Positions 5,962 to 54,594 are shown, counted from the first letter of the stretch. The stretch: DNA of 64,000 nt from an uncultured Dehalococcoidia bacterium (GCA_958295935.1 OY282385.1:496001-560000), one strand, 5' to 3'. Notes: generated by a model from the sequence alone, not told the origin. A program made the numbers and translations.

Positions 5962-8142
5962 CTACTCAGCAAGCCGTATCTCCCCCTCCCACAGAGCCCC
6001 CGAAGCGTCGTACTGGCCGGTCCTGATATGGGCTATGGCATATTCCCGTAGAGCCACCGTCGCCATACATCTCCCGTCGAATATCCCGCCTCGTCCGTCG
6101 AAGTCGAAGTCGAGGTTGTCGAAGCCATACTGCTTGCGCTGTCTGGGGAGGTCGCTCGCGTCAACGGGCAAGACATGTACGAAGAAAGTCGCCTCCGTGT
6201 CGGCGCGGGCGCACGGCTCCTTGACGTACACCAGCCGATCCTCGCCGAGATACACGTCCCAGTCCGATCGAATTGACGGCGGGCTGTCTCCGAACAGTCC
6301 TGACAGGTAATCGTCGGCCGACATTATTTCAATCAAATCCCGCAAGTCGTGTCCTGCGAAACTTGCCGTGACCCAATCATGGTCGTCGGAGTTGAAGGGC
6401 ATCCACAGGCCGGGGCCGACCCTCACGGCGTATCGACCTCGCTCGAGGGCCTGCGCTTCGCTGGAGGCCGCAGGGTGCACCGCGATGTTGATGCCGCGCT
6501 GCTCCAGGTATCCGGGCGGCGGTTGGCGGTCATGAGCGATTACGCGTTGATGGTTGGGTGTTGTGACAGGATTGCGCGCCACCGTCGCATCGGTCAAGCC
6601 GTCGAGGTCGATGACCTTCAGGTCCGGAAGGTAATAGAACCTGCCGAGACCTCCGCCTGCCATCAGCGCGTCATCAGGAATCAATCCCCGCTTCATGTTC
6701 TCGTAGGGCTGCCATAGACGCCGTTGCTGGTTGGTGAATTCTCGGTGTTCCGCGAATGGTGCAGCGACACCCTGCACGGCAGACTGACGGCGCAGGTCGT
6801 TGGAGACAGCGGCCAGTGCGGACATCCCCGGCGCAGCCAGCAGCCGGCCGGTGCGGCCATCGTCGAGTTCTATGTGAAGTCTCCAGACGTACTCGTCAAT
6901 CCTGGCGCCCTTGAACAATAGGGATCCCTGTATGGCCCCGCAGTAGAAGACCACGGGGACGAACAGGATGAGCGCGCAAGCCCGCGCCCCCGGCCGCCAG
7001 AGCCGGTAACTATCGAGACTCTGCCTACTCTCAGCTTGTCGAAGTACGGCCTTGACCTTAGCCAGCAGAGCCGTGGGGAGGGGTATGCGCCGCCAATCGA
7101 AGGCGGCCAGCCGCGAGCCGATACAGGCAATCCCCTCAGCAGCAGGCAGCGCAAGCAACGGCCAGTAGAAGTCCAGCGGGCGATACTCGAAATGGTCGCC
7201 CCCTATCCGCATCACGTAGGCCATGTGGACACCGATTAGCAGCAGGACCAAGCCATAGATCCCGTCGCGGCTCTCCCCCCACCGGCGCCGCAGAGCGACC
7301 CAGGCTAGGGGAACCAACAGGTACAGACCCGTATCCAGCGCCGCCGCCCACAGGTAGCGGAAGCCCGACTCATACCATGGGCGGACGTGCTTGGCGTAAT
7401 AGGTGTTCGGCAGCCACTCGCCGTAGTAGGCGTAGCGGAACAGGAAATGGGCCGACACCAGGATGACGAAGGGCCCTGCCAGGTACGCCAACTCGCGCCA
7501 GTCCACCCTCATACGCTTGGCCTCGACCATACGCTGCACCGCGAACCAGCCGAAGCAGCACACGGCAATCAGCGGGCCCTCGGGTCGGGTCAGGGCAGCG
7601 CCGGCAAGGCTCAAAGACGCCGCCAGCAGGCCGGCGCGACTGTCGCGGTAGAGGCTCAGGCAAACGACGGCCAGGACGATGAAGAAGGTGAACTGACGCG
7701 TTTCCAGTCCGCCAGCCGAGGTCCACACGGCGAAAGTCGCACTGCTGCACACCAACCCCAACGCCATCCAGCAGACCAATCCACGCTTTCGAAGCGAGGG
7801 AAGGCGATAGACCCACCACGCCAGCGCCCCTACGGTCCCCGCTGTGAAGACCACCGACAGCCAAGGCGCAGCGTACTCCGGGGCCCAGCCCAACGCCCAC
7901 CAGATGGCGGCCAACTCCAACACCCACAGGAAATTGGAGTAACCTTCCACACGCTCGCCCGGGTTGAACACTAGGCCGTGACCCTCCAGCAGGTTCCGCA
8001 CGTAGCGAAAGCTGATGAAGGCGTCGTCCGTCAGAAACCAAGACACCGAGGCCAGAAAGACCAACAGGGCCAACCAAGGCAGGCAGGCCAGAATGAGACC
8101 GAGGGACGCCTTTAGCGGCTCGCTTGACATCCGTCCCTTCAT
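5962..8142 (-). CDS. GT-C membrane glycosyltransferase-like protein with two-Cys tail domain (array 1, type A)
   Basis: This 726-residue protein is multi-spanning, with about 10 or more hydrophobic segments in its first 450 residues. The first membrane helix is followed by [18 protein letters not shown] (DD at 39-40) and [14 protein letters not shown], typical of GT-C enzymes (PMT/GT39-like) that transfer sugars from polyprenyl phosphates on the outer membrane face. The C-terminal half is soluble. It ends in the tail domain shared by all nine array genes ([16 protein letters not shown] ... GFDNLDFDF ... [10 protein letters not shown] ... [10 protein letters not shown]). The ATG chosen gives the same 16-base gap from the preceding stop as in the sister genes at 8159 and 47328; another ATG lies four codons later. 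It is a near-duplicate of the next gene. Acceptor and sugar are unknown. Confidence 0.82.
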
Positions 8143-8158
8143 CCACACCCGTGGCCCA

Positions 8159-10342
8159 CTACTCAGCAAGCCGTATCTCCCCCTCCCACAGAGCCCCCGA
8201 AGCGTCGTATTGGCCAGTCTTGATTTCGGCTATGGCGTATTCCCGCAGAGCCACCGTCGCCATACATCTCCCGTCGAATATCGCGCCTCGTCCGTCGAAG
8301 TCGAAGTCCAGGTTGTCGAAGCCGTACTGCTTGCGCTGTCTGTGGAGGTCGCTCGCGTCAACGGGCAAGACATGTACGAAGAAAGTCGCCTCCGTGTCGG
8401 CCAGGGCGCACGGCTCCTTGACGTACACCAGCCGATCCTCGCCGAGATACACGTCCCAGTCCGATCGAATTGACGGCGGGCTGTCTCCGAACAGTCCTGA
8501 CAGGTAATCGTCGGCCGACATTCTTTCAACCAAAGACCCCAAGTCGTGTCCTGCGAAGCTGGCCGCGACCCACTCATGGTCGTCAGAGTTGAAGGGCATC
8601 CACACGCCGGGGCCGACACTCACGGCGTATAGACCTCGCTCGAGGGCCTGCGCTTCGCTGGAGGCCGCAGGGTGCACTGTGATGTTGATGCCGCGTTGCT
8701 CCAGGTATCCGGCCGGCGGGCGGCGGTCATGAGCGATTACGCGCTGGTGGTTGGGCGTTGTGACAGGATTGCGAGCCACCGTCGCATCGGTCAAGCCCGC
8801 GACGTCGATGACCTTCAGGTCCGGAAGATAATAGGACTCTATTCCGAGAGCTCCGCCTTTCTTCAGCGCATCATCAGGAATCACTCCCCGCTTCATGTTC
8901 CCATAGGGCTGCCACTCACGCAGTCGGTCGTTGGCGGCCTCGCGGTGCTCCGCGAATGGTGCAGCGACAGCTTGCACGGCAGACTGACGGCGCAGGTCGT
9001 TGGAAATAGCGGCCAGTGCGGACATCCCCGGCGCAGCCAGCAGCCAGCCGGCGTTGTCCTCGTCAAGCTCTATGTGAAGTTGCCCCACGTACCAGTCAAT
9101 CCTCGCGCCCTCGAACAACAGGGCGCCCTGCATGGCCCCGCAGTAGAAGACCACGGGGACGAACAGGATGAGCGCGCAAGCCCGCGCCCCCGGCCGCCAG
9201 AGCCGGTAACTGTTCAGACTCTGCCTACTCTCAGCTTGTCGAAGTACGGCCTTGACCTTAGCCAGCAGAGCCGTGGGGAGGGGTATGCGCCGCCAATCGA
9301 AGGCGGCCAACCGCGAGCCGATACAGGCAATCCCCTCAGCAGCAGGCAGCGCCAGCAACGGCCAGTAGAAGTCCAGCGGGCGATACTCGAAATGGTCGCC
9401 GCCTATCCGCATCACGTAGGCCATGTGGACACCGATTAGCAGCAGGACCAGCCCATAGATCCCGTCGCGGCTCTCCCCCCACCGGCGCCGCAGAGCAACC
9501 CAGGCTAGGGGAACCAACAGGTACAGACCCGTATCCAGCGCCGCCGCCCACAGGTAGCGAAAGCCTGACTCGTACCATGGGCGGACGTGCTTGGCGTAGT
9601 AGGTGTTCGGCAGCCACTCGCCGTAGTAGGCGTAGCGGAACAGGAAATGGGCCGACACCAGCATGACGAAGGGCCCTGCCAGGTACGCCAACTCGCGCCA
9701 ATCCACCCTCAACCCTTTGGCGTCGGCCATACGCTGCACCGCGAACCAGCCGAAGCAGCACACGGCAATCAACGGGCCCTCGGGTCGGGTCAGGGCAGCG
9801 CCGGCAAGGCTCAACGACGACGCCATAAGGCCGGCGCGACTGTCGCGGTAGAGACTCAGGCAGACGACGGCCAAGACGATGAAGAAGGTGAACTGCCGCG
9901 TTTCCAGCCCGCCGCCCGAGGTCCACACGGCGAAAGTCGCACTGCTGCACACCAACCCCAACGCCATCCAGCCGACCAATCCACGCTTTCGAAGCGAGGG
10001 AAGGCGATAGACCCACCACGTCAGCGCCCCGACGGTCCCCGCAGTGAAGACCACCGACAGCCAAGGCGCAGCGTACTCCGGGGCCCAGCCCAGCGCCCAC
10101 CAGATGGCGGCCAATTCCAACACCCACAGGAAGTTGGAGTAACCTTCCACACGCTCGCCCGGGTTGAACACTAGGCCGTGACCCTCCAGCAGGTTCCGCA
10201 CGTAGCGGAAGCTGATGAAGGCGTCGTCCGTCAGAAACCAAGACACCGAGGCCAGAAAGACCAACAGGGCCAACCAGGGCAGGCAGACTAGGATGAGACC
10301 TAGGAATGCCTTTAGCGGCTCGCTTGACATCCGTCCCTTCAT
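8159..10342 (-). CDS. GT-C membrane glycosyltransferase-like protein, tandem near-duplicate (array 1, type A)
   Basis: At 727 residues, this copy matches the gene at 5962-8142 almost throughout its membrane half, including DDAFISFRY and [14 protein letters not shown]. Differences cluster in the soluble middle (about 8670-9120). The tail domain repeats the two cysteines (KEPC and DGRC) and the closing [10 protein letters not shown]. The start [12 protein letters not shown] lies 16 bases beyond the stop of the upstream gene, so the genes are probably co-transcribed from the right. The near-identity indicates a recent tandem duplication or gene conversion. A short segment at about 9235-9255 carries the CTTCGACAAGCTGAG-like sequence common as an interspersed repeat, read in frame as [10 protein letters not shown]. 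Confidence 0.82.
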
Positions 10343-10358
10343 CCGCACCCGTGGCCCA

Positions 10359-12749
10359 CTACTCAGCAAGCCGTATCTCCCCTCCCCACAGAACCCCCGA
10401 AGCGTCGTACTGGCCGGTCTTGATTTCGGCTATGGCGTATTCCCGCAGAGCCACCGTCGCCATACATCTCCCGTCGAATATCCCGCCGAACCTGTAGAAG
10501 CCGAAGTCCAGGTTGTCAAAGCCGTGCTGCATGCGATGGAAGGGGAGGTCCATCCACGTCGCGGGAGTCAGGTGGAGGAAGAAAGTCGCCTCCGTGTCCG
10601 CGCGGGCGCACGGCTCCTTGACGTACGCCAGCCTGTTCTCGATGAAATACACGTCCCAGTCCGATCGAATTGCCGGCGGGCTGTCTCCGACCAGTCCTGC
10701 CAGGTAATCGTCGACCGTCACCGTCTCCACCCGCACCGGAGGGAAGGCTTCGCGGGGCAGCATGAGGGCGGCCACGCACAGCCCCGTCTCCGTTTGCGCC
10801 CAGGCCTTGACGGCCAGGGCATCCGCTGCGCCGGTCCATGACCACACTGCCAACTCGTCCCGCGCACAATCCTTGGCGAACGCCTGCGCCATCCGCCCGT
10901 CCACAATCGCTCCAAAATCGCCCGATTCATAGTCGAAGTGCGGCTCCATACGCTGCCAAAACCAGTCGGCCGGTTCAACATCCAGCAGCGGTTCAATAGG
11001 CCATAGACTGATCTTCCTTGCACTGAAGGCCAATGGATATTCAAAAAGCGGGTCAATATCGAAGTCCGCCTCTTTAAGCTGGGCAAAGTGAGTTATTCCA
11101 AAGTCTATGGCATATCCATCCCTGTTCACGCCTGTCGCGTGAAAATAGCCCCAGGAATTCACAAGCCCGTCCAGGTTCACCACCGGAAAGCGCGAGAAGT
11201 ACCCGATGATGCCGGCATCCCACGACCCGACCACGCTGTCCTCGGGCAGCACACGATTCATAATCTGGGCCCCTCTATAAAAAGTGGCGGACCATTGGCC
11301 GGGATTGACCGGTGAAGCGCTTCTCGATTCAACAGACCGGAACGGCCCCGTGAAGTCCGCCTTCATAAGCAGGAAGAATGCTCCGACAACTACGATACCC
11401 GCGCTCAGCAGGTTGGCCGCCAAGTGCGACCGCGGCCCGATGAAACGGCGGATGAAGTGGATGGCCGCATAGCACCTTACGGGAATGATAAGCGCCATCA
11501 GCAGGTACGCCGGCGCGAAGTACCAGTCATAACTCCCCCAGTGGGGATCCACGGTGAGAACGGTCTGAGCGAACTTGGCCAGGTGGCCGACCGCCAGGCC
11601 GAACACGCACACCAGGAAGGCCAGCAGCAGCCAGTCTGTACGACCCCCGGAACGGCGGGCGAACCACCAGACCAGAACGACCCAGAGGCAGACCTCCAGA
11701 GCAACCAGCAGCTCGTAGTTGAAGACGGGAATCTGCAAAACGTCCCGGAAGCTCTGAACGAAGCTGTACCCGCCTTCCTGCCCCCATTCCTGCTGCGACC
11801 AAGCCTGCTTGGTCGCGCCGCTCACCGGCGTGATCCCCCCAAAGACGATGCCGTTGTACGCGAAGTACACCAGCAGCCCGGCGACCGCGGCGAAAAACAG
11901 GACGACCGCCCTGATGGAAAGCACGGAACGGGCCAACCCCCTCACCCTGGCCTTCTCCCACAGGGGGAGGAGAAGGAACCGGCCCCCTCTCGCCTCCGGG
12001 GTGCCGAGACCCTCTACCTCAACGGGAGAGGGTTGGGATGAGGGTCGTTCCCGCCGAGACCACTCGATTAGACACAGCGCGGCAGTCGCGGCCAAGGATA
12101 TGGCGACATACTCCAATCGCACCCAGGGCAGGCTGAAGGCGACGGCCGCCAGCAGCCAGCGCCACCGTTGCGAGTCTCGCACGTAGAGCATCACCGCCAG
12201 GAAGAACAGCGCCAGCATGAACAGCCCGGCGGCCGCCTCCAGTCCCGAGAATAGACCGCGCTGTTGGTACAGCAGCGGCAGCAGGGCGAACAGCAGAATC
12301 CACGGCAGGCGGGCAAGACGGGCGGCCGCAACCACCAGCGCCGCCCCGCCGGCGATGAGCATGACCTCGAACACCTTGATGCCGAACAGCGCCGCTTCCT
12401 TGTCGAACACCCAGTAGAAGGGCGTAATGAGCAGCAGCCAGAGGGGATGGTAGCCGTTCGTACGGGTAATGCCGCCGTCGAAGGTCGAGAAGTTCCCCGA
12501 GGCCAGGTTCCAGGCTATCTGGAAGTAATAGAAGGAGTCGTCGTTGTTTACGTCCCGGATGAGGTTGAAGAGGTCGAAGCGGGCCAGCATGTACCAAGCG
12601 AACCCGGCCCCGTATGTCAGGACGCCGCCGATGAATAGGGTGAATAGGACGTTGCGCAGCCGGGAGGAAGGAATACCCCACTCCGCACCTATGCTCTGAT
12701 AACGCGCTGTCAGAGCGCGCAAGAGATTGTTCAGCGCAAAGCCTCTCAT
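10359..12749 (-). CDS. GT-C membrane glycosyltransferase-like protein with capped N-terminus and tail domain (array 1, type B)
   Basis: From the MRGFALN start the protein has 796 residues; the frame stays open upstream to an ATG at 12806, so a longer N-terminus is possible. It begins with the cap [19 protein letters not shown] shared by several array genes. A membrane helix and the GT-C-like motif [15 protein letters not shown] (DD at 70-71) follow, then [17 protein letters not shown] and several more membrane helices. Around residues 235-275 an interspersed palindromic repeat is read in frame (see 11937-12046), giving a Pro/Arg-rich loop. The soluble end carries [16 protein letters not shown] and the common tail domain ending in GEIRLAE. 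Paralogues of the same type are at 44864 and 49543. Confidence 0.8.
11937..12046. repeat. Interspersed palindromic repeat inserted in frame in a glycosyltransferase gene
   Basis: Near-complementary ends CCCTCACCCTGG..TTCTCCC and GGGAGAGGGTTGGGATGAGGG enclose about 60 bases. The sequence resembles the widespread bacterial repeat that reads as SPQPSP...LLPLWEK in proteins. Copies sit at the equivalent place in the genes at 44864 and 49543, so the insertion predates their duplication. It keeps the reading frame and adds about 37 residues between membrane helices. Confidence 0.7.
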
Positions 12750-12818
12750 GCCGTCCCCGCCACTCATCAAGGCGTATTTACTCTTCCTGCGCGCCTGCTC
12801 CGCCACCGCCTGTTCCCG

Positions 12819-15005
12819 CTACTGCTCAAGCCCTATCTCCCCCTCCCACAGAGCCCCCGAAGCGTCGTACTGGCCCGTCCTGACGTGGATAATCTCATAG
12901 GGCAGAGCCGCCGTCGCTATACATCTGCCGTCGGATATCACGCCGCGCCGCTCGAAGCTGAAGTCCAGGTTGTCGAAGCCGTACTGTATACGATGGTCGG
13001 GGAGGTCGTTCGCGTCAACGGGCAAGATATGCACGAAGAACTTCGCCTCCGTGTCGGCGCGGGCGCACGGCTCCCTGACGTAGGCCAGCACGCTTTCGCT
13101 GAGATATACGTCAAAGTAGGAGCGGATTATGGGTTCGCCGGATAAGAGGGCCTGGTAAAAGGAGCGGACCGCCAGTTCGAAGGACTCTTTAGGGTACGTA
13201 ATCATAGCGATACTGAAAATTCCGTCAGTAAGGATAACTTCAACAGAAACCTGCTCTCCCAGCAGTTCAAACAGGGCTGTCCTTATAGGGTCGGCGGCCT
13301 CTGTCTGAACGCGGTGCGTCCCGCCGTTCTTCTCACCGGATGTTGTAGTCTCGGTCCAGCCCGATACTGTCGGCCATGTTGTTCTGCTTTGGTAGGCCAC
13401 GAAGATTCTATTGGGGACATTGGGGAGCGATGCTAATATAATATTGGCCATTTCACCAAGACACAGTTCGGCGAAATTCGGGCACCAGTGGGTTCCATAG
13501 TAGTAATTGGCCGGACTTTCCTCTTTTCCTTGATAGAACCGCATGGCCGGAATTACCGCTGGGTCTACGTAAACTATGTCCTCCTCCCGCACCCGTTCTT
13601 GCAGTACTGCAAGAACGGATTTGATGTCTTCATCCGTCGTATACGGACTGTCCTGCCGCATGGCGCTCACCCCGGCGAGGGCTAGTGCGCCGACGGCCGA
13701 GATGGTTAGCGCGGGCGCCAGCCACCCCCGGCGTGTGAGCGCTGCGAGAGAACCGGCTATCCAATGAAACGCAACGGCGGTGGCCAGAAAGATGATCGGT
13801 CCCAGATAGATAGCCTGTCGGATGTCCTCAAGGGGATATATGCTCAGCAGTGCAGCGGCAACGGAAGCTGCAATGCAAAGCGAGAATAGAACTGCGATGG
13901 CGCTGTCTGGAAATTTTCCTAGAAACTCTCTGAGGACTGCTGCGGCCAGTAGGATAGCGAATGCGGTAAGTGCGGCTATCGCAACAGCGGCTGTCAGATG
14001 ATAGGTCAATAAGTTCCAAATCCCATCAATCGAAAACTCGAAGATTGCGGACGCATCGAATTTCTCTTTATAGTAATACGTCAATAGCCACCCACCCGAT
14101 GTCCAGCCCCCTTCCTGCCACTGATAGCGCAAAGTGGCGGCGTAGCTTATAACGCACCCGGCCAGGAAGCACGCTGCAGGCCAGAGGAGGGCGATTCGGG
14201 GCTTGATCCAGTTGCGAACCCGGCGTAGGTATGAATTTCCTTCCGGCGCACCAATCCGTCCACGCCTACGCCCACGCCTACGCCGCCGGCCTGGATATGA
14301 CTTCCCTTCCGGCGCGCCAAATTCGGGCGTCGGTAGAAGCATAGCGACGCCCATTACGGCGGCGCCAAACAGGACCAACCCGTACTGGAGCAGCGGCGCA
14401 AGGAACAGCGAAGCGCAGAGCAGGGCCTTCCTGCCGTCCCGCAGATACCACAGCAGCCCCGCTATCATCAGCACTGCCAGCAGCGCGTCGATGGAGTACT
14501 CGCGCCCGTCCTGAGCGTGATATATCGCGGCAACCGAAAGAGTCGCCAGCAGGGCCGCCAGAAACGCGGCTCCCCGAGCAACTCCGAGGCGCGGCAGCAG
14601 AAAGAGCATCACGGCGACGGTCAGAACGCTTGCCGCGGCCGGCAGAACGCGGACGCTGAAGGTCGTACTCCCGACTTTTTGGACCGCCCACAGCGCCAGG
14701 GGGTACAGGATCGGCGAGGAGTTCCTGTCGCGGGTATTCGAGACTGTCTCCGAAAATGTTCCCCTCGAATTATTGGCGGCAACCGCTTCGTCATACCGCA
14801 GGAAATTCCCGGTCAGGTCATAGAAGCGCAGCGCGGCCGCGGCTATGAGAAGGCACAGGAACGCCGCAAGGACCAGCCGTTGCGGAGGGACGCGCGTTGT
14901 CAGGCCGTTCCGCAGCCGGGAGGAAGGAATAACCCATTCCGCACCTATGCTCTGATAACGCGCGGCCAAAGCGCGCAAGAGACTGTTCAGCGCGAAGCCC
15001 CTCAT
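12819..15005 (-). CDS. PMT/GT39-like membrane glycosyltransferase with capped N-terminus and tail domain (array 1, type C)
   Basis: From MRGFALNSLLRAL (cap) the protein has 728 residues; an upstream ATG at 15026 would add seven. The first membrane helix leads into LTGNFLRYDEAVAANNS with D72-E73, the acidic pair of classic PMT_2 (GT39/GT83) enzymes. About ten membrane segments follow up to residue 430, then a soluble part with NYYYGTHWCPNFAELCLG. The common tail domain (DVYLSESVLAYVREPC ... DGRCIATAAL) closes the protein. Around 14237-14318 an Arg-rich loop (YPGRRRRRGRRRGRIG) flanked by repeated GAPEG..SY interrupts the membrane part and looks like an inserted repeat. It is the first gene of array 1. 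Donor and acceptor are unknown. Confidence 0.82.
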   Translation of the reverse strand: MRGFALNSLLRALAARYQSIGAEWVIPSSRLRNGLTTRVPPQRLVLAAFLCLLIAAAALRFYDLTGNFLRYDEAVAANNSRGTFSETVSNTRDRNSSPILYPLALWAVQKVGSTTFSVRVLPAAASVLTVAVMLFLLPRLGVARGAAFLAALLATLSVAAIYHAQDGREYSIDALLAVLMIAGLLWYLRDGRKALLCASLFLAPLLQYGLVLFGAAVMGVAMLLPTPEFGAPEGKSYPGRRRRRGRRRGRIGAPEGNSYLRRVRNWIKPRIALLWPAACFLAGCVISYAATLRYQWQEGGWTSGGWLLTYYYKEKFDASAIFEFSIDGIWNLLTYHLTAAVAIAALTAFAILLAAAVLREFLGKFPDSAIAVLFSLCIAASVAAALLSIYPLEDIRQAIYLGPIIFLATAVAFHWIAGSLAALTRRGWLAPALTISAVGALALAGVSAMRQDSPYTTDEDIKSVLAVLQERVREEDIVYVDPAVIPAMRFYQGKEESPANYYYGTHWCPNFAELCLGEMANIILASLPNVPNRIFVAYQSRTTWPTVSGWTETTTSGEKNGGTHRVQTEAADPIRTALFELLGEQVSVEVILTDGIFSIAMITYPKESFELAVRSFYQALLSGEPIIRSYFDVYLSESVLAYVREPCARADTEAKFFVHILPVDANDLPDHRIQYGFDNLDFSFERRGVISDGRCIATAALPYEIIHVRTGQYDASGALWEGEIGLEQ
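14237..14318. repeat. Direct-repeat-flanked Arg-rich insert in glycosyltransferase gene
   Basis: The motif TTCC(C)TTCCGGCGC(A/G)CC occurs at both ends, and the middle holds iterations of CGCCTACGCC. Read in frame on the minus strand it gives GAPEGKSY..RRRRRG..GAPEGNSY. It has the look of a small interspersed repeat that spread into coding sequence. No other copy is seen in the window. Confidence 0.5.
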
Positions 15006-15265
15006 GCCGTTCCCGCCACTACTCATCCAGCCGTGTCTCCCCTTTCAGTCAGTATCACGCGAATAGCCTCCGACCCTCGATCCCGTACATCGCGGTCTTG
15101 AGCCGAAATCCAGACCCCAGCCCACTGCACTCCGGCGCAGGCCGGAAACGACTACGGAAGCCAGTCGGGATTTTCATTCTCTCACACGGCCTTTCCGCCA
15201 AGCGACGACACCAATACCCAGACGACAGCCCACACCGGCAGTCTCCCCACATCAGCACAAAATGG

Positions 15266-15338
15266 TGGGCCCTGTGGGATTCGAACCCACGACCTGCGGA
15301 TTAAAAGTCCGATGCTCTGCCAGCTGAGCTAAGGGCCC
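15266..15338 (-). tRNA. tRNA-Lys (anticodon TTT)
   Basis: The complement folds as a complete cloverleaf. A 7-bp acceptor stem GGGCCCT/AGGGCCC is followed by the D arm with GCTCAGCTGGCAGAGC. The anticodon loop is CTTTTAA and the T arm is GTGGG TTCGAAT CCCAC. The discriminator is A, and an encoded CCA follows at 15265-15263. The anticodon TTT reads lysine codons. The gene lies 260 bases from the start of array 1, so it may mark the border of the glycosyltransferase/defence island. Confidence 0.97.
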
Positions 15339-15590
15339 TTAGAGCATTGTAGGTCCGCCGCGCCCCGCTTGTAACCGCAGCACACCGGCGAACGCCCCGC
15401 GCCGAGACATACCAGCGGCCCGCAACCTCTCCCACAACGACCACTCTCCCACAGACGCGCAGGCCCTTCCACGCCGTCACAAACTTGTATGCTTACCACC
15501 GGTCGATCAGCATGAGAGTTCCGCTCACCACCGGGCCAATACCGACCGACCGGCGGCAGGCACAGGCAAAAGAGAGAAAGGAAGCGCCAC

Positions 15591-16841: not shown

Positions 16842-16851
16842 TTCCGACCTC

Positions 16852-17536
16852 CTACCGGTATACAACCGGCTCTAGATCCTTTGAAATCGCTCCACGGGAA
16901 GACCCCATGCTCGCGATCCGAATCTCCTTACGCTCTGCCCTGCAATCCGGGTCAGCCAACACCACCGGACGCCCGGTACAAGGATGACCAAGTACTACGA
17001 CCGGATGGTCGAACACGCCCGACAGGAACGCCTCCTTATACACCTCCCCGGGCGTACCCACCGCAGTCACCCGACCCGCTTGCATTACCACGATACGATC
17101 GGCCCAGGAAGCAGCCAGGTTCAGATCGTGAAGCACGACCAGAACCGCGCACCCGGCACGCGTCCTTTCCCGGCACAAGGACATCATCATCTCCACGTGC
17201 CCAATGTCCAGAGAACTCGTCGGCTCGTCCAGCAACATAACCACCGTGTCCTGCGCAAACACCCGCGCCAAGGTCACGCGCCTCTGTTCCCCGCCGGAGA
17301 GGGTGGGATATGAGCGGTCCCGCAGGCGCCAAACCTCCGTCTTCCTCATCGCATCCGCAACTATACGTCGATCACTCTCCGAAGGAGAGCCCCAACCTTC
17401 CTGATGGGGTGCCCCCCCATCACTACCACTTCACCAACCGTGAATGGAAACCGAACCTCCGTATGCTGAGGCATCACCGCCAGCAGCCCAACTCACTGCC
17501 GCGCTGAGGCTTCCAGACGCCCGCAGGGACCGGCCT
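16852..17536 (-). pseudogene. Decayed iron/haem-type ABC transporter ATPase (HmuV/FecE-like)
   Basis: The C-terminal half is intact, with signature LSGGEQRRV, Walker B VVMLLDEPTSSLDI and switch VVLHDLNLAA. The N-terminal half is broken. Going upstream, the protein can be followed as LAVMPQHTEVRFPFTVGEVVVMG in one frame. It jumps to the GAPH..DRRIVADAM frame at a run of seven Gs (17412-17418 on the plus strand), where eight would restore the frame. An in-frame TGA precedes LLAVMPQ, and the Walker A part is missing before the end of the enolase gene at 17549. A shorter product from 17349 would lack the P-loop. The missing P-loop makes an assembly error alone an unlikely explanation. Confidence 0.8.
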
Positions 17537-43374: not shown

Positions 43375-43445
43375 GCCGGACCAACACCCTTACCCGACCA
43401 TCTCCACAAACCCTGGCGCGCATAGACAACGCGGGAAACAAAACG

Positions 43446-44833: not shown

Positions 44834-44863
44834 CCGCCTACTCCACCGCCGCCCGTTCCACCG

Positions 44864-47257
44864 CTACCGCTCAAGCCCTATCTCCCCCTCCCAGAAGTGC
44901 TTGTAACCGCCGTCCACGGGGACGTACTGGCCCGTCCCGATGCGGGCAATGTCATACTCAGGGAGAGCCGCCGCCGCCGCACATCTCCCGTCGAATATCG
45001 CACCGCGCTGGTCGAAGCGGAAGTCCAGGTTGTCGAAGCCGTGCCGCTTGCGATCGTCGGGAAGGTCGTTCACGTCAACAGGATACAGGTGGAGGAAGAA
45101 CATCGCCTCCACGTCGGCCAGGGCGCACGGCTCCCTGACGTAGATGAGGTGGTCTTCAATGAGATGCACGTCAAAGCCGGAGCGGATTGACGGCGGACGG
45201 TCTTCGACCAGCCCTGCCAGATAATCGACCGCTGCTATAGCTTCAACCCTGACCGGCGGGAGCGCATCGTGGGGCAGCACAACGGCGTCCGCGCACAGCC
45301 CCGTCTCCGTTTGTGTCCAGGCGTTGAAGACCGGTCCATCCGCTGCGCCAACCCAAGACCACACTACCAACTCGTTCGACCCACAACTCCTGGCGAACGC
45401 CAGCGCCAGCCGGCCCTCCACCATCAGCCCGACGCCAGCCGACTGATGGTCGAAGTGGGGTTCAATCCTCTCCCAAGTCCCGGCGGCCGTATTTTCATCT
45501 GCCGGCAGACCGATGGGCCGTAGTTGGAGTTCGAATCTATTGAATCTATTTAGTGGTGAACCTTCAAGCCTCGTAGGTTCGGCAAAATGAGTTATACCGA
45601 ATTCTCGATACAGAGGAGCATCGTCTATAGCCAGTTTTCTCGCATGGAAATAGTCGTAGGAGTTGACCAGCCCATCCAGGTTCACCACCGGAAAACGCGA
45701 GAAGTACCCGATGCCGCCGGCTTCCCGCGACCCGACCACGCTGTCCTCGGGAAGCACGCGATTCATAAACTGCGTACCCCCATAAACAGCTTCAGTCCAT
45801 TCGATCCATGAGTCGTCAGTTCTGGTTGAAACCCTAAGCGTTTCAACACGCTGAAATGGCTCGGTGAAATCGGCCTCGATAAGCAGGAAGGCCGCGCCCG
45901 TAAGGACGATGCCCAAACTCAGGATGTTGGCCGCGCGCTGCGACTTCGACCCGATGAACCGGCGAATGAAGTAGATGGCGACGTAACATCGTACCGGAAC
46001 GATCAGCGCCATCATCAGGTACGCCGGGACAAAATACCAACGCCAAGGCCCCAAGGAAGGGTGAATCGTGAGAACAGTCTGCGCGAACTTCGCGAGGTGG
46101 CCGGCCGCCAAGCCGAACACGCACACCAGGAAGGCCAGCAGAAGCCAATCTTTCCGACTCCCGGAGCGGCGAGCGAACCACCAGACCAGCAGCAAATAGG
46201 CGCAAACCTCCAGCGCAACCAGCAGCTCGTAGTCGAAGACGGAAATCTGCAACATATCCTGGAAGTTCTGCGCCAAGCTGTATCCGCCTTCCTGCTCCCA
46301 CCTGACCTGCGACCAGAAATTCTTGGTCGCCGCGCTCACCGGCACGATGCCGCCGAACACGAGCCGGTTGTAGGCGAAATACACCAGGATGCTCGCGACC
46401 CCGGCGAGAAACGGAACAACCGCCTTGACGGAGAGCACGGAACGGGCCAACCCCCTCACCCTGCCCTTCTCCCACAAGGGAAGGAGAGGGAACCCGCCCC
46501 CTCTCGCCTCCGGCGCGCCGAGAGCCTCTACATCAACGGGAGAGGGTTGGAGTGAGGGCGCCCGCTCCCGCCGCGACCACTCGATTAGACACAGCGCGGC
46601 GGTGACCGCCAACGATATAGCGATGTACTCCAGGCGCACCCAAGGCAGGGCGAAGGCCGCGGCGGCCAGCGGCCATCTCCAGCGAGCCGGGTTCCGCGCG
46701 TAGAGCATCACGGCCAAGAAGAACAGCCCCAGCATGAACAGCGCCGCCCCCGCCTCCATTCCTGTAATCAGGGGCCATTGCGGGTAGAACATCGGCAGCG
46801 CGGCGAACATCAGATACCACGGCAGGCGCGCCAGACGGGCGGCCGCCGCGGCGAGGGCTACGCCGCCGGCGATGAGCATGATCTCGAACGCCTTGATGGC
46901 GAACAGCGCCGCTTCCTTGTCGAATACCCAGTAGAACGGCGTGAGCAGAAACAGCCAGAGGGGGTGATATCCGTTGGTGCGCGTGATGCCGCCGTCGAAG
47001 GTCGAGAAGTTCCCAGAGGCCAGGTTGTAGGCTATCTGGAAGTAGTAGAAGGCGTCATCGTGCATGTTGGAGATGAGGTTGATGACGTCGAAGCGGGCCA
47101 GCATGTACCAGGCCAACCCGGCCCCGTAGGCCAGGACGCCGCCGATGAACAGGAAGAACAGCCCGTTCCGCAGCAGGGAGGAAGGATACCCCGCGCACAA
47201 TTGTTCTGGCAGCGCGGCCAAGGCGCGCAAGAAACTGTTCAGCGCAAAGCCCCTCAT
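44864..47257 (-). CDS. GT-C membrane glycosyltransferase-like protein with cap and tail domain (array 2, type B)
   Basis: From MRGFALNSFLRAL the protein has 797 residues. Its cap continues in frame as LPEQLCAGYPSSLLRNG, into a membrane helix, and then MHDDAFYYFQIAYNL with the acidic pair, [17 protein letters not shown], and further helices. It is the intact reference for the frameshifted sister gene at 49543. An in-frame palindromic repeat sits at 46451-46559. The soluble end has the pre-tail region (FDHQSAGVGLMVEGRLALAFARSCGSNELVVWSW) and the tail domain with its two cysteines (REPC, DGRC), ending LWEGEIGLER-like (FWEGEIGLER). It is the last gene of array 2, abutting the duplicated GrdE fragment. 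Confidence 0.8.
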   Translation of the reverse strand: MRGFALNSFLRALAALPEQLCAGYPSSLLRNGLFFLFIGGVLAYGAGLAWYMLARFDVINLISNMHDDAFYYFQIAYNLASGNFSTFDGGITRTNGYHPLWLFLLTPFYWVFDKEAALFAIKAFEIMLIAGGVALAAAAARLARLPWYLMFAALPMFYPQWPLITGMEAGAALFMLGLFFLAVMLYARNPARWRWPLAAAAFALPWVRLEYIAISLAVTAALCLIEWSRRERAPSLQPSPVDVEALGAPEARGGGFPLLPLWEKGRVRGLARSVLSVKAVVPFLAGVASILVYFAYNRLVFGGIVPVSAATKNFWSQVRWEQEGGYSLAQNFQDMLQISVFDYELLVALEVCAYLLLVWWFARRSGSRKDWLLLAFLVCVFGLAAGHLAKFAQTVLTIHPSLGPWRWYFVPAYLMMALIVPVRCYVAIYFIRRFIGSKSQRAANILSLGIVLTGAAFLLIEADFTEPFQRVETLRVSTRTDDSWIEWTEAVYGGTQFMNRVLPEDSVVGSREAGGIGYFSRFPVVNLDGLVNSYDYFHARKLAIDDAPLYREFGITHFAEPTRLEGSPLNRFNRFELQLRPIGLPADENTAAGTWERIEPHFDHQSAGVGLMVEGRLALAFARSCGSNELVVWSWVGAADGPVFNAWTQTETGLCADAVVLPHDALPPVRVEAIAAVDYLAGLVEDRPPSIRSGFDVHLIEDHLIYVREPCALADVEAMFFLHLYPVDVNDLPDDRKRHGFDNLDFRFDQRGAIFDGRCAAAAALPEYDIARIGTGQYVPVDGGYKHFWEGEIGLER
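46451..46559. repeat. Interspersed palindromic repeat, in-frame copy 2
   Basis: This copy corresponds to 11937-12046. It has the same near-complementary ends (CCCTCACCCTGCCCTTCTCCC and GGGAGAGGGTTGGAGTGAGGG) at the same place in a type B gene. It is read in frame as SLQPSPVDVEALGAPEARGG and LLPLWEKGRVRG. Confidence 0.7.
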
Positions 47258-47327
47258 GCCGCCCCCGCTACCGCTCAAGGTGTATTTACTCTCCCACGCG
47301 CCCGCCCGCCACCGCCCGTTCCCGCCA

Positions 47328-49526
47328 CTACTCATCCAGCCGTATCTCCCCCTCCCAGAGGTGCTCGAAGCCGCCGTCCATCGGCACGTACTGGCCCGTC
47401 CCGATGCGGGCAATGTCATACTCAGGGAGAGCCACCGTCGCCATGCACGTCCCGTCGAATATCATGTTGCGCTGGTCGAAGAAGTCGAAGTCCAGGTTGT
47501 CGAAGCCGTGCCGATTGCGATCGTCGGGAAGGTCGTTCACGTCAACAGGATACAGGTGGAGGAAGAACCTCGCCTCCGTGTCGGCCAGGGCGCACGGCTC
47601 CCTGACGTACACCAGCGTATTTTCGCTGAGATAAACGTCGAAGTCAGAGCGGATTGCGGGCGGGCTGTCTTCAACCTGTCCTGCCAGATAATCGCCCGTC
47701 GGCACTGTTTCAATCCAAGACCGCAAGTCGTGTCCGGCGAAACTTGCCGCGACCCACTCGTGGTCGTCGGAGTCGAAGGGCATCCACAGGCCGGGGCCGA
47801 CCTTCACCGCGTACTGACCTAGGTCGAGGGCCTGGGCTTCGCTGGAGGAGGCAGCGAACACATAAATGTTAACCCCGCGCTGATCCAAATACCCGGGCGG
47901 CGGGCTGCGGTCATGAGCGATTATGCGCTGGTGGTTGGGCGTTGTGACAGGATTGCGCGCCACCGTCGCATCGGTCAAGCCCTGGCGGTCTACGACTTTC
48001 AGGTCCGGAAGGTAATAGAACCGTATACCGAGAGAGCCGGCTGCCATCAGCGCGTCTTCAGGAATCACTCCACGCTTCATGTTCTCGTAGGGCTGGTACC
48101 CACGCAGTCGGACGTTGGCGAACTCGCGGTGTTCCGCGAATGGTGCAGCGACAGCTTGCACGGCAGACTGACGGCGCAGGTCGTTGGAGATAGCGGCCAG
48201 CGCAGGCATCCCAGGCGCGGCCAGCAGCCAGCTGGCGTTGCCCTCGTCGAGTTCTATGTGAAGATGCATAATGCGCTCGTCAATCTTGGCGCCCTCGAAA
48301 AACAGGGCTGCTTGTATGGCCCCGCAGTAGAAGATCACGGGGACGAACAGGATGAGCGCGCAAGTCCTCGCTCCCGGCAACCAAAGCCGGTAACTATCTA
48401 GATTCTGCCTACTCTCAGCTTGTCGAAGTACGGTCTTGCCCTTAGCCAGCAGAGCCGTGGGGATGGGTATGCGCCGCCAATCGAAGGCGGCGAGCCGCGA
48501 GCCGATGCAGGCAATACCCTCGGCAGCAGGCAGCGCAAGCAACGGCCAGTAGAAGTCCAGCGGGCGATACTCGAAATGGTCGCCCCCTATCCGCATCACG
48601 TAGGCCATGTGGACAACGATTAGCAGCAGGACCAAGCCATAGATCCCGTCGCGGCTCTCCCGCCACCGATGCCGCAAAGCAACCCAGGCTAGGGGAACCA
48701 ACAGGTACAGACCCGTATCCAGCGCCGCCGCCAACAGGTAGCGGAAGCCTGACTCGTACCATGGGCGAACGTCCTTGGCGTAGTAGGTGTTGGGCAGCCA
48801 CTCGCCGTAGTAGGCGTAGCGGAACAGAAAATGGGCAGACACCAGGATGACGAAGGGCGCGGCCAAGTACGCCAACTCGCGCCAGTCTACCCTCATACGC
48901 TTGGCGTCGGACATACGCTGCACCGCGAACCAGCCGAAGCAGCACACGGCAATCAACGGGCCCTCAGGCCGGGTCAGGGCAGCGCCGGCCAAGCTGAACG
49001 ACGCCGCCAGCAGGCCGGCACGCCTGTCGCGATAGAGGCTCAGGCAGACGACGGCCAGGACGATGAAGAAGGTGAACTGACGCGTTTCCAGCCCGCCAGC
49101 CGAGGTCCACACGGCGAAAGTCGCGCTGCTGCACACCAGCCCCAACGCCATCCAACCGACCAATCCCCGGTTTGGCAGCGAGGGCAGGCGATAGACCCAC
49201 CATGCCAGAGCCCCGACGGTTCCGGCTGTGAAGACCACCGACAGCCATGGGGCCGCGTCCTCCGGGGCCCAGCCCAGCGCCCGCCAGATGGCGGCCAACT
49301 CCAACACCCACAGGAAGTTGGAGTAACCTTCCACACGCTCGCCCGGGTTGAACACCAGGCCGTGACCCTCCAGCAGGTTGCGCACGTAGCGAAAGCTGAT
49401 GAAGGCGTCGTCCGTCAGGAACCACGACACCGAGGCCAGCCAAGCCAGCAGGGCCAACCAGGGCAGGCAGGTCAGGATGAGAACGGGGGATGCCTTCAGC
49501 GGCTCACTCGACGTCGATCCCTTCAT
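47328..49526 (-). CDS. GT-C membrane glycosyltransferase-like protein with tail domain (array 2, type A)
   Basis: This 732-residue protein is the third copy of the type A enzyme of array 1. Its start [13 protein letters not shown] lies 16 bases after the stop of the gene at 49543, the same spacing as in array 1. The open frame is longer upstream but overlaps the neighbour's coding end. It carries [20 protein letters not shown] and [14 protein letters not shown], at least ten membrane helices, and a soluble half with [15 protein letters not shown]. The tail domain ends [26 protein letters not shown]-like repeat is read in frame ([10 protein letters not shown]). Presence of type A and type B copies in both arrays shows that the arrays share ancestry by duplication. 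Confidence 0.82.
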   Translation of the reverse strand: MKGSTSSEPLKASPVLILTCLPWLALLAWLASVSWFLTDDAFISFRYVRNLLEGHGLVFNPGERVEGYSNFLWVLELAAIWRALGWAPEDAAPWLSVVFTAGTVGALAWWVYRLPSLPNRGLVGWMALGLVCSSATFAVWTSAGGLETRQFTFFIVLAVVCLSLYRDRRAGLLAASFSLAGAALTRPEGPLIAVCCFGWFAVQRMSDAKRMRVDWRELAYLAAPFVILVSAHFLFRYAYYGEWLPNTYYAKDVRPWYESGFRYLLAAALDTGLYLLVPLAWVALRHRWRESRDGIYGLVLLLIVVHMAYVMRIGGDHFEYRPLDFYWPLLALPAAEGIACIGSRLAAFDWRRIPIPTALLAKGKTVLRQAESRQNLDSYRLWLPGARTCALILFVPVIFYCGAIQAALFFEGAKIDERIMHLHIELDEGNASWLLAAPGMPALAAISNDLRRQSAVQAVAAPFAEHREFANVRLRGYQPYENMKRGVIPEDALMAAGSLGIRFYYLPDLKVVDRQGLTDATVARNPVTTPNHQRIIAHDRSPPPGYLDQRGVNIYVFAASSSEAQALDLGQYAVKVGPGLWMPFDSDDHEWVAASFAGHDLRSWIETVPTGDYLAGQVEDSPPAIRSDFDVYLSENTLVYVREPCALADTEARFFLHLYPVDVNDLPDDRNRHGFDNLDFDFFDQRNMIFDGTCMATVALPEYDIARIGTGQYVPMDGGFEHLWEGEIRLDE

Positions 49527-51190
49527 CGCTGCACTTGGGCCGCTACTCCACAAGCCGTATCTCCCCCTCCCAGAAGTGGTTGTAGCCGCCATCCACGGGT
49601 ACGTACTGGCCTGTCCCGATGCGGGCAATGTCATACTCAGGGAGAGCCGCCCTCGCCATGCATATCCCGTCGAATATCGCACCGCGCTGGTCGAAGTAGA
49701 AGTCCAGGTTGTCGAAGCCGTGCCGCTTGCGACCGTCGGGAAGGTCGTTCACGTCAACCGGATACAGGTGGAGGAAGAACGTCGCCTCCGTGTCGGCCAA
49801 GGCGCACGGCTCCTTGACGTACACCAGCCCGTTCTCGACGAGATACACGTCCCAGTCGGAGCGGATTGCCGGCTCGCGGTCGCCGACCAGTCTTGCTATG
49901 TAATCGCCGGCCGTCATCGCCTCCGCCCGCACCGGAGGGGAGGCGTCATGGGGCAGCACGAGCGTGGCCGCGCACAGCCCAGTTTGCGTTTGCGTCCAGG
50001 CTTTGGGTAACGGTTCATCCCCGGCGCCGGTCCATGACCACACTGCCAACTCGTCCGGCGCGCAATCTCCCACGAACGCCTGCGCCATCCGTCCGTCCAC
50101 AATCACTCCGATATTGCCCGATCGATAGTCGAACTGCGGCTCCATCCGCTGCCAGAACCAGTCGGCGGCGTCTCTCGTTGGGGAGTAGGACCAGAGTTTG
50201 AACCGTAGTCCGCTGACGTCAGACTCGGGAAATAGTGTGCCCTCGAACATGACGTTGTCCAAGGCGAATCCACGCTTTACATTCAAATCGCCTCCAGCGA
50301 CGTTCGCGAACCAGGTGACCCCGTAATGCTGATAGAACGCGGACGCGGCAGCGGGTACCTCCTTGCGGGCCTGCCAGTAAGGGTAGCGATTGCGGGCGCG
50401 ATAGAAATCGTAAGAGTTGACCAGACCGTCCAGGTTCACCACCGGGAAACGCGAGAAATACCCGATGACGCCGGCGTCCCACGACCCGACCACGCTGTCT
50501 CCGGGCAGCACACGGTCCATAACCTGCACGCCCATATGAGAAGCAACCTCATAGTTCCGGTACGTTGACTCGCTTGCCGAGTCAACGTACCGGAACGGTC
50601 CTGTGAAGTCCGCCTTTGTAAGCAGAAAGGCCGCACCTCCAATGACGATACCCGCGCTCACAATGTTGGCTGCCAAGGGCCGCCTCGGGCCGATGAAACG
50701 GCGGATGAAGTGGATGGCGACATAGCACCTTACGGGAATGAGAAGCGTCAGCAGCAGATACGCAGGCGTGAAGTACCAAGCGAATTTCCCCCAGAAGGGA
50801 TGCACGGTGAGAACGGTCTGAGCGAACTTGGCGAGGTGCCCGACCGCCAAGCCGAACACGCACAACAGGAAGCCCAGCAGCAACCAGTCCTTCCGGTTCT
50901 TGGAACGACGGGCGAACCACCAGACCAGAACGAAGTAGGCGCAGACCTCCAGCGCAACCAGCAGCTCGTAGTCGAAGGCGGGAATCTGCAAGACGTCACG
51001 GAAGTTCTGAACCAAGCTGTATCCGCCTTCGTTATCCCACCAGGCTTGCGACCACATCCGCTTGGTCGCGCCGCTCACCGGCGTGATACCCCCGAAGACG
51101 ATGCCGTTGTACGCGAAGTACACCAGCAGCCCGGCGACCGCGCCGAAAAACGGGACGACCGCCCTGATGGAGAGCACGGAACGGGCCAAC

Positions 51191-51299
51191 CCCCTCACCC
51201 TGCCCTTCTCCCACAAGGGAAGGAGAGGGAACCTGCCCCCTCTCGCCTCCGGGGCGCCGAGAGCCTCCACCTCAACGGGAGAGGGTTGGGGTGAGGGCG
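51191..51299. repeat. Interspersed palindromic repeat, in-frame copy 3
   Basis: This is the third copy of the element seen at 11937 and 46451, at the same place in a type B gene. Read on the minus strand it gives [20 protein letters not shown] and LLPLWEKGRVRG. The ends are near-complementary, so the transcript could form a long hairpin. Confidence 0.7.
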
Positions 51300-51930
51300 C
51301 CCGCTCCCGCCGCGACCACTCGATTAGACACAGCGCGGCGGTGACCGCCAGCGATATGGCGACGTACTCCAACCGCACCCACGGCAAACTGAAGGCCACG
51401 GCGGCAAGCGGCCAGCGCCACCGGTGCGAGTCTCGAACGTAGAGCATCACCGCCAAGAAGAACAGCCCAAGCATGAACAGCGCGGCGGCCGCTTCCATTC
51501 CCAGGAATAGGTTGTGCTGCTGGTACAGCATCGGCAGTGCGGCGAACAGCAGAATCCACGGCAAGCGGGCAAGACGGGCCGCCGCGACCACCAGCGCCGC
51601 CCCGCCGGCGATGAGCATCACCTCGAACGCCTTGATGCCGAACAGCGCCGCTTCCTTGTCGAATACCCAGTAGAAAGGCGTGATCAGCAGCAGCCAGAGG
51701 GGATGATAGCCGTTCGTACGGGTGATGCCGCCGTCGAACGTGGAGAACCTGCCCTCGGCCAGGTTGTAGGCTATCTGGAAGTAGTAAAAGGCGTCGTCGC
51801 GGTTTACGTCCCGGAGCAGGTTGACAAGGTCGAAGCGGGCCAGCATGTACCAGGCCAACCCCGCCCCGTAGGCCAGGACGCCGCCGATGAATAGGAAGAA
51901 CAGGCCGTTCCGCAGCCGGGAAGAAGGATA

Positions 51931-51938
51931 CCCCCCCC
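51931..51938. repeat. C8 (G8 on coding strand) tract in the cap of the gene at 49543
   Basis: The homopolymer interrupts the cap reading frame by one base. It occupies the same cap position as the C14 tract at 54135. Sister caps at 44864, 10359 and 12819 have no such tract and are in frame. Confidence 0.8.
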
Positions 51939-53961
51939 ACCCCGCACAATTGTTCTAGTAGCGCGGCCAAGGCGCGCAAGAGACTGTTCAGCGCAAAGCC
52001 CCTCATGCCGCCCCCGCTACTCATCAAGGCGTATCTTCTCTCCCCACGCGCCCGCCCGCCGCCGCCCGTTCCCGCCACTACTCATCCAGCCCTATCTCCC
52101 CCTCCCAGAAGTGCTCGAAGCCGCCGTCCATCGGCACGTACTGGCCGGTCTCGATGCGGTCAATGTCATACTCAGGGAGAGCCGCCGTCGCCATGCATAT
52201 CCCGTCGAATATCATGCCGCGCTGGTCGAAGTAGAAGTCCAGGTTGTCGAAGCCGTGTTGCCGGCGGTCGTCGGGAAGGTCATTCACGGCGACGGGGTAC
52301 AGGTGGAGGAAGAAAGTCGCCTCGGTGTCGGCGCGGGCGCACGGCTCACTGACGTACACCAGTGTATTTTCGCTGAGATATACGTCCCAGTCAGAGCGGA
52401 TTGCCGGCTGGCTGTCTCTGACCAACCGGGACAGATGATTGAGACTATCGAGATAGTCGGCTATAGCGCGGGCTTCCACTTCGCCAATGCCAGGTGAGGA
52501 CATCGACGTGCCTGGGGCAAACTGCTCCGGGTCGGTGAGAAATTGCATGATGCTGTCCCGCGTCCAGACGACGTCCAACGAATCGAACGCAGCCGAAAAT
52601 CGGTAGCCGCCTACCTCGCCCGCTCGACGCCCGATTACGCCAACGAGGTGCGGACCGACGCCGTGCCGCTCGACGTTCAGGTCGTGGCAGGCGCTGCACT
52701 GCACACCGAATAGCTGAGCGCCTGCCGACGTATCTATACCCGAGTCCCCCCGCACCGGTAAGTCCAGCCACGGCAATGCGGGGGCAGACTCGCAGTCGAC
52801 CGAGTAGACGTCGCGGCGATTCCGAGATTCCTCATCGCAGTACCTTGGGGAACGGCTTAAGAAGTAGACCACCCCTCCATCGCGCAACAGGGCTATGCGT
52901 CCGTCCGGCATGAACGTCAGGTCTCGGATGCGGTAGCCGACTTCGATTCGCTCGAAGTATTGCACCTCAGTCTCATGACGGCGGACTCGGAAGAGGGATT
53001 GAGCAGCCATCGTAGCAACCAGCAGGTCGTCTTTCCACAGGGGGAACCGCTGCTCGTCGTTGACCGCGATGGCGGAAACGGCAGGCGACGGCACCCATGC
53101 GAAGGTAGGCCGCAGGAAGCCATCATGCCGGCCCGCCTCCTCGTCCTCCATGGTCGGGGGAATCTCACCGCCATATTCAATTCCGTAGGAGACCAGGGGC
53201 CAGCCGTAGTTGCCTCCCGGCTCCAGCAGGTTCAACTCGTCCCCGCCTTGCGGCCCGTGGTCCGGCGCCCACAGGTGGCCATCCGCATCCCGCGCCAGCC
53301 CTTGTGAGTTGCGAAAACCGATGGCCAGCGCCTCCGCCTCTCCTGTTTCGATCTCAATACGAAGGAGTTTGCCCAAGTGGACGTCAGGACTGAACGTCGG
53401 CCGCGCCCGCCATCCGTCTATTCCGTGGGCCCCGATTATTACCAACAAGTGGTCCGCGCCGTCCGTCAACATCTTCCCGCCTCCCTCGTGCCCTGCGAAC
53501 CAAGGAACGGACATGCAGGGTTCCGCGTCGAATATCGTCCTCCACTCCGGCATGACCGTGACGCCCTCTTCATCTCGCATAATCGTCGTGGACGACAACC
53601 TGAACCGGATGCACTCGCCGGTAAAGTAATGATGAGTTGCAAACAACTCGTAACGCCCTTCTCCAAGTTGCTTCAACAGAATATCGGCAACGCGAAATCT
53701 CCCTGGCGTGAATTCCGGACTATCGTAATCCGGATGAGTTTCAAACGCCGTCTCATTCATTGGAACGCTGCCGTTCAGATATTCCACGGTCCCGTCCCGG
53801 AAGACTAGGGCAAACTTTCCCTTCGGAGTGACCACGAGTAGGTCCTCACCCATGACTTCAATGGCCCCGCCCCTCCCGGCAAAACGTTCCAGTCTGACGG
53901 ACTCGCTCTCAAGCGCGTACAGATGAGTGGTGAGAGCCGGTCCTTCTTCGGGAGTGGATGT

Positions 53962-54047
53962 CGGCACAGGCGAGACCGGCACAGGCGAGACCGGCACAGG
54001 CGAGACCGGCATAGGCGAGACCGTCACAGGCGAGACCGGCACAGGAG
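53962..54047. repeat. 15-bp minisatellite encoding a VPVSP linker
   Basis: About five head-to-tail units of GCGAGACCGGCACAG follow the lipobox of the dehydrogenase gene. On the coding strand they give repeated PVPVS residues, a flexible spacer from the membrane. Length changes by one unit keep the frame. Confidence 0.85.
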
Positions 54048-54134
54048 GATCATCAGAGCAGGCGGCCGCCGCCGCGAGCAGACAGACGAACGCCGCGAGA
54101 GTCAGGACGTTGCGCAGCCGGGAGGAAGTAATTA

Positions 54135-54148
54135 CCCCCCCCCCCCCC
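54135..54148. repeat. C14 (G14 on coding strand) tract between start and lipoprotein signal
   Basis: Fourteen Cs in a row separate the cap from RLRNVLTLAAF. With 14 the cap frame and body frame differ by one base; 13 or 16 would join them. Tracts of this length are typical slippage sites. Confidence 0.85.
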
Positions 54149-54228
54149 GAACAATTGTTCTGGTAGCGCGGCCAAGGCGCGCAAGAGACTGTTCAGCGCA
54201 AAGCCCCTCATGCCGCCCCCGCTACTCA

Positions 54229-54594
54229 TCAAGGTGTATTTACTCTCCCCACGCACCCGCTCCACCGCCGCCCGTTCCCCCCACTACCGCCCAGCCCTAT
54301 CTCCCCCTCCCAGAGGTGCTCGAAGCCACCATCCACCGGCACGTACTGCCCGGTCCCGATGCGGGCAATGTCATACTCAGGGAGAGCCACCGCCGCCATA
54401 CATCTCCCGTCGAATATCGCGCCTCGCCCGTCGAAGCCGTGCCGCTTGCGACCGTCGGGAAGATCATCCATGTCCGCAGGAATCAGGTGCAGAAAAAACA
54501 TCGCCTCCGCGGCGGCCGGGGCGCACGGCTCCTTGCCCCGCTGCACTGGCAGACAGGGGGCTATGCGGTCGTATTGAGCTTCCGTGATTTCCAT
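54229..54594 (-). pseudogene. Chimera of IS5-like transposase start and array tail domain
   Basis: The frame begins MEITEAQYDRIAPCLPVQRG, the N-terminus of IS5-family (DUF4096) transposases. After about 20 residues it switches to the tail domain (MFFLHLIPADMDDLPDGRKRHGFD, DGRCMAAVALPEYDIARIGTGQYVPVDGG, LWEGEIGL). The tail is missing its first part (the DVYL..KEP segment) and part of the middle, and its usual stop is lost, so reading continues to 54229. No catalytic transposase residues remain. It arose by a recombination between an insertion sequence and an array gene and is unlikely to work. Confidence 0.75.

Follow-up and report, generated by a model that had tools for sequence, protein, structure and literature searches.

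We analysed a stretch of 64,000 nucleotides (the window) from an uncultured Dehalococcoidia bacterium (GCA_958295935.1, OY282385.1:496001-560000), in which nine open reading frames (ORFs), all on the minus strand and lying in two arrays, have a common domain of about 115 residues at their C-terminal ends. A first-pass annotation of the same DNA had proposed that one two-cysteine tail closes nine different genes, and all nine were found; the positions that it gave as the beginnings of the tails are in fact the 3' ends of the ORFs. It did not remark on a second shared element, a leader with which several of these genes begin and which often contains a poly-G tract. The tails, leaders and tracts of the window are located as follows.

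5965-6312, minus strand: tail of P1, GT-C type A (ORF 5962-8169; tail alignment and genome search)
8162-8509, minus strand: tail of P2, GT-C type A (ORF 8159-10369; tail alignment and genome search)
10362-10709, minus strand: tail of P3, type B (ORF 10359-12806; tail alignment and genome search)
12660-12767, minus strand: shared leader of P3, in frame, with a short G run
12822-13157, minus strand: tail of P4, GT-C type C (ORF 12819-15026; tail alignment and genome search)
14910-15026, minus strand: shared leader of P4, without a long G run, in frame
44867-45226, minus strand: tail of P5, type B (ORF 44864-47419; leader ATG near 47257)
47165-47257, minus strand: shared leader of P5, in frame, with a short G run or none
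47331-47693, minus strand: tail of P6, GT-C type A (ORF 47328-49682), the tail modelled alone with AlphaFold
49546-49905, minus strand: tail of P7, type B (ORF 49543-51858; tail alignment and genome search)
51910-52024, minus strand: shared leader of P7, ATG at about 52024, out of frame with P7
51931-51938, minus strand: poly-G tract (G8) in the P7 leader, with GGGGT before the tract
52081-52437, minus strand: tail of P8, a GSDH(PQQ)-cytochrome c lipoprotein (ORF 52078-54042)
54111-54229, minus strand: shared leader of P8, ATG at about 54229, out of frame with P8
54135-54148, minus strand: poly-G tract (G14) in the P8 leader
54229-54594, minus strand: tail remnant with internal deletions, preceded by 20 residues from the N-terminus of an IS5-family transposase

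The nine tails are 58-96% identical to the first of them, and both cysteines are invariant in the alignment. The genome that contains the window, a single contig of 2.75 Mb, gave 46 tail matches with E-values down to 2.7e-70, which excludes a chance origin of the similarity; the copies are spread over several arrays and some stand in tandem. The two cysteines noticed at first hold well beyond the window, since 239 of the 242 full-length tails have exactly two and the other three have three. Sequence searches of Pfam, NCBIfam, PHROGs and PDB with the tail found no family match, in line with the earlier suggestion that the domain is undescribed, and judging from these searches the tail appears to be a protein family of hundreds of members that is new to the libraries searched. 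Phage records gave no match to the full-length P6 protein, IMG/VR gave none to the tail, and a plasmid search returned one marginal match of 29.5% identity. These results lower the case for carriage by phages or plasmids, and other mobile elements may still be involved. The ORF at 54229-54594 had been described as an insertion sequence (IS) chimera. Its first 20 residues are indeed 65-80% identical to the N-termini of IS5-family transposases, but the tail that follows is incomplete, and because of its internal deletions we regard the ORF as a remnant.

The partners of the tail are membrane or exported proteins: GT-C types (some of them PMT_2), GSDH-cytochrome c lipoproteins, arylsulfotransferases, an SGNH-like protein and an O-antigen ligase. 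No cytosolic fusion was seen among the partners examined, which bears out the idea of a domain fused to unrelated extracytoplasmic proteins. P8 is the PQQ-dehydrogenase/cytochrome lipoprotein that had been recognised before, with a GSDH match (1e-44) and a cytochrome c domain in the order GSDH-cytochrome c-tail. The assignment of three types of GT-C enzymes stands in part: types A and C show weak NCBIfam GT-C matches below the cut-off, but type B has no family match in Pfam or NCBIfam. Some other tailed partners match PMT_2 above the cut-off, and the catalytic parts of the arylsulfotransferase, GSDH/PQQ-cytochrome c and O-antigen ligase partners likewise match their families above it, although none of these Pfam models includes the tail domain. 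GT-C types and PQQ proteins fall together in the largest partner cluster (128), whose size we do not take as the number of GT-C enzymes. We also observed a membrane family with the motif GEEISWGQRIFGF that is usually tailed (L038, L054, L092, L098, L147), has no Pfam match, and in Binatia carries poly-C tracts near its N-terminus. The PQQ lipoproteins at 52078-54042 and at L104 4642-6870 have a repeat of the PMPVSP/PVPVSP type whose length differs between the paralogues.

The C-terminal position of the tail in most genes, on many unrelated exported proteins, led the first-pass annotation to suggest a sorting, anchoring or glycan-attachment signal, which would be read by a dedicated enzyme. The position holds in the window but not in its relatives. 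In all three Caldilineales proteins read (L130-L132) the order is GSDH-tail-cytochrome c, and in a 2788-aa ORF (L137) a single tail lies within a region that also has cadherin, FN3 and LRR domains; these internal tails are the reason why we reject a C-terminal sorting role. Tandem tails range from 2 to 10 copies per protein, with ten in a Wzy_C/O-antigen-ligase-like protein of 1869 aa (L103) in the same genome as the window, whereas PEP-CTERM, LPXTG and secretion C-terminal domain (CTD)-like signals are single and strictly C-terminal. Membrane-anchored sorting signals have a transmembrane (TM) segment with a charged end, or a linked enzyme. Neither was found for the tail: no TM-like segment lies in or after it in 266 copies, and no processing enzyme recurs in the flanks of tailed genes, where the most frequent untailed neighbour is a gene for a polysaccharide-deacetylase-like lipoprotein. 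Secretion CTDs need no TM segment, and the TM criterion covers membrane-anchored signals only. The main partners, moreover, are already polytopic, and altogether we hold a sorting, anchoring or attachment signal to be very improbable.

More probably the tail is an Ig/FN3-like module. AlphaFold, given an alignment of 50 diverse tails, predicted a mostly beta structure for the tail (pLDDT 88.7, pTM 0.82). Structural searches of this model returned weak matches to Ig, FN3 and cytokine-receptor chains (best Foldseek E 9e-3, VIA Z at most 7.2), with CBM56 and CBM31 chains also among the weak Foldseek matches, and the fn3 and Ig models of Pfam gave no sequence match to the tail. The fold is thus probably an Ig/FN3-like beta-sandwich as far as the model goes. 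A functional relative was sought with Foldseek and VIA, which gave generic Ig/FN3-like chains only; families missing from the list may still be related. According to crude hydropathy, the type B, WaaL-like and cluster-1 partners have an odd number of TM segments and the N-terminus inside, which places the tail outside the membrane. The type C partner has an even number, and the positive-charge pattern of type A is not clear. We infer an extracytoplasmic topology for the type A, type B and type C partners, where the cysteine pair would form a disulfide bond and the tail may bind a ligand or glycan.

In many array genes the start ATG overlaps the stop codon of the preceding tail or just follows it, and many have the common leader, often ending in a poly-G tract (G8-G18). 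The tracts occupy one position in homologous leaders of unrelated genes from several taxa. The reading frame varied with the length of the run: of 39 leaders with fewer than 8 G, 29 shared the frame of their gene, against 6 of 16 leaders with 8 or more (Fisher p=0.014). In Entotheonella, the alignment of the copies L050 and L051 (2,322 nt, 99.35% identity) has one gap, which falls in the tract (G11 vs G9) and puts their leaders in opposite frames; this comparison is one pair of paralogous copies within one genome. Two features by which phase-variable genes are recognised are therefore present, a variable simple repeat in the 5' coding region and a tract length that differs between near-identical copies. 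The pattern of leaders and tracts is that of translational phase variation, from which we infer switching itself.

Similar tracts were seen elsewhere. In the genome that contains the window, poly-G/C tracts lie in three N6_N4 DNA methylase genes (L158 2473-4331, L152 2003-5115, L159 2069-3334); the tract breaks the frame in at least L158 and L152, and L159 remains one ORF. On their sequences, these genes are candidates for phase-variable methylation. An untailed PMT-type glycosyltransferase gene (L156 2540-4622, minus strand) is split by a G13 tract preceded by TAGAACAATTGTGC, as in the leaders of the window. At L101 11602, a G21 tract on the plus strand lies within a type C GT-C gene, where it codes for consecutive prolines and causes a frameshift, and similar tracts occur in L061, L075 and L082.

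The sequence around the tracts shows a regularity. Runs of 8 or more G (own genome, L031-L099) usually have C before them and TA or CA after them, on either strand relative to coding, and TA follows 51% of such runs but 4% of runs of 4-5. In 21 tail-rich genomes there are 141 occurrences of GGGGGGGGGTA and 22 of its reversed control, compared with 19 and 25 in 26 tail-less relatives. The TA excess comes partly from the shared ancestry of the leaders, yet tracts in unrelated genes have TA too. Selection for a stop codon was set aside as the cause of TA after the tracts, because tracts in genes coded on the C strand have the same context. This regularity may reflect a sequence-specific process, either mutational or mobile. 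It also speaks for another explanation of the tracts, namely that they act on the initiation of transcription or translation, or are neutral expansions left by a sequence-specific mutational process with a TA footprint, and are no coding switch at all; the weak codon bias of the leader fits this as well. A tract with no bearing on coding does not readily explain why the frame is kept with short tracts and mixed with long ones, or why several tracts inside methylase or glycosyltransferase coding regions break the frame, and we consider this explanation unlikely.

The tail also appears to be a site of recombination. In its second half, tails of the same array with different partners had a mean identity of 85.7%, compared with 75.0% for tails of other arrays with the same partner, so that the tail DNA tracks the array and not the partner. 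Across genomes the identity was 64.4% for the same genome with an unrelated partner, 62.8% for another genome with a close partner and 57.0% for neither, and both genome and partner thus contribute. One may then ask whether the tail is mainly a recombination handle for the exchange and amplification of cassettes, with little role as a protein. Arrays amplified to 17-64 copies, together with the fragments and the IS remnant, agree with such a handle, as does the dependence on the array. Against it, the ratio of nonsynonymous to synonymous substitution rates (dN/dS) of the tail is about 0.43, which indicates a constrained protein sequence; both cysteines are kept in every full copy, the predicted fold is confident, and the low-copy internal homologues form no array. 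We therefore doubt that recombination is the main purpose of the tail.

Twenty other genomes from several phyla, being those reached via the first matches, have 17-64 tails each. The record titles of the carriers name Dehalococcoidia, Caldilineaceae, Tepidiformaceae, Binatia, Entotheonella, Bryobacterales, Nitrospirales, Latescibacteria and Gammaproteobacteria. Among related genomes the tail is rare: it was found in 3 of 294 genomes of the class, 1 of 76 of the family and 7 of 400 of the phylum to which the window belongs, in 2 of 64 Latescibacterota and in 1 of 247 genomes of the Binatia phylum. Short-read metagenome-assembled genomes (MAGs) may lose repeats, so absence from fragmented genomes is weaker evidence, but the single-contig relatives in the family are also without the tail. 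Outside Caldilineales, of which 13 genomes have just one or two tails each, the domain is nearly all-or-none. A type B enzyme of the window is 79% identical over 648 aa to a Binatia gene, and such whole-gene similarity across phyla points to lateral transfer. The carrier genomes stand under OY282/CATQ accessions. A search for the OY282 prefix gave 14 papers, and the ten of them listed are Wellcome Open Research genome notes whose subjects are insects, a fish and a plant; similar phyla are named in the sponge genome notes of that series. The carriers are likely to come from a common sequencing centre and to be sponge symbionts; the sponge origin is deduced from the phyla, because no paper that names a sponge was found to contain the accessions of the carrier MAGs.

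Other genes of the window lie around the arrays. The first array is adjoined by two ThsB-like TIR proteins flanking an AAA_21 ATPase (453-1016, 1575-3128 and 4145-4723, all minus strand), possibly a Thoeris-like defence locus. At 16852-17349 (minus strand) there is part of a gene for an ABC transporter ATPase, which is probably a pseudogene. Several copies of glycine/sarcosine/betaine reductase component B genes are found around the second array (42052-44729, plus strand; 54638-57407 and 61727-63064, minus strand).

We propose that these genes are horizontally shared, phase-variable and recombining envelope-glycan cassettes carrying an extracytoplasmic Ig-like module, an explanation that we regard as fairly probable. 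It builds on the observed shared domain and leader, the frame pattern, the difference in tract length, the array-wise homogenisation of tails and the similarity across phyla; the evidence on cassettes and frames is good and that on the fold moderate. The tail would be a disulfide-type Ig/FN3-like module that faces outward on envelope enzymes, most of them GT-C and other glycan-assembly proteins, and a cassette would consist of a start overlapping or abutting the stop of the previous tail, a leader often with poly-G, a variable enzyme and one or more tails. Slippage in the tract during replication would shift the reading frame and make each cassette flicker on and off, so that cells of one population would have different sets of active surface-glycan enzymes. 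Recombination at the repeated tail/leader junctions would homogenise the tails within an array and let cassettes be added or swapped, and whole genes would have moved between phyla.

Several points weigh against this proposal. The matches to the fold are weak, so that the fold implies no function for the tail, and the AlphaFold model of a full-length type B protein (pLDDT 41) was unusable. A few rows of the frame count are chance matches and not leaders. The difference in tract length between near-identical copies is known from one pair in one genome, and homopolymer sequencing error could change single tract lengths. The codon-position bias of the leader is small (0.255/0.252/0.292), and the leader may be mainly a DNA or RNA element. 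Runs of G8 in the window are no commoner than in dinucleotide shuffles; the argument rests on the position and length of the tracts, not on their number. Type A genes are without the leader, and translation of some downstream genes may begin at a start of their own.

The best-known examples of G-tract phase variation come from host-adapted pathogens such as Neisseria, Campylobacter and Helicobacter, and a single literature search turned up no paper describing it for sponge symbionts. The cassettes resemble known poly-G/C contingency genes, as in the Neisseria phasome (PMC5953494), the repeats of Helicobacter canadensis (PMC2823697) and homopolymeric tracts generally (PMC2831843), in having a G/C tract close to the 5' end in genes for surface glycans and methylases and a frame that is mixed among copies. 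They differ in that unrelated genes have one common tract-bearing leader and one 3' domain, and in that the same cassette layout recurs across phyla. The FN3/Ig-like and cadherin adhesion domains of sponge symbionts, whose FN3 and cadherin genes have already been reported to be transferred laterally between phyla in sponge communities (PMC8163846), are similar extracellular beta-sandwich modules common to phyla, here too probably in sponges, and one tailed protein has cadherin, FN3 and LRR domains as well. Unlike them, the tail has no FN3, Ig or other Pfam match, has a conserved cysteine pair, and is found mostly on membrane glycan enzymes and not on adhesins.

A wider and more tentative idea, which we put forward as conceivable although hardly probable, is that a community of several phyla shares a pool of phase-variable glycan cassettes with the same slippage leader and Ig-like tail. 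Its poly-G element would have been spread or extended by a sequence-specific process in the C-Gn-TA context, and unrelated symbionts in one host would diversify their surfaces with an exchangeable toolkit. If the proposal is true, uncultured symbionts of several phyla would vary their envelope sugars with one shared, recombining cassette system, and the tail profile, the leader and the tracts would be markers measurable directly in metagenomes. It would also offer a testable account of the means by which the dense communities in sponges might escape phages or phagocytosis by the host.

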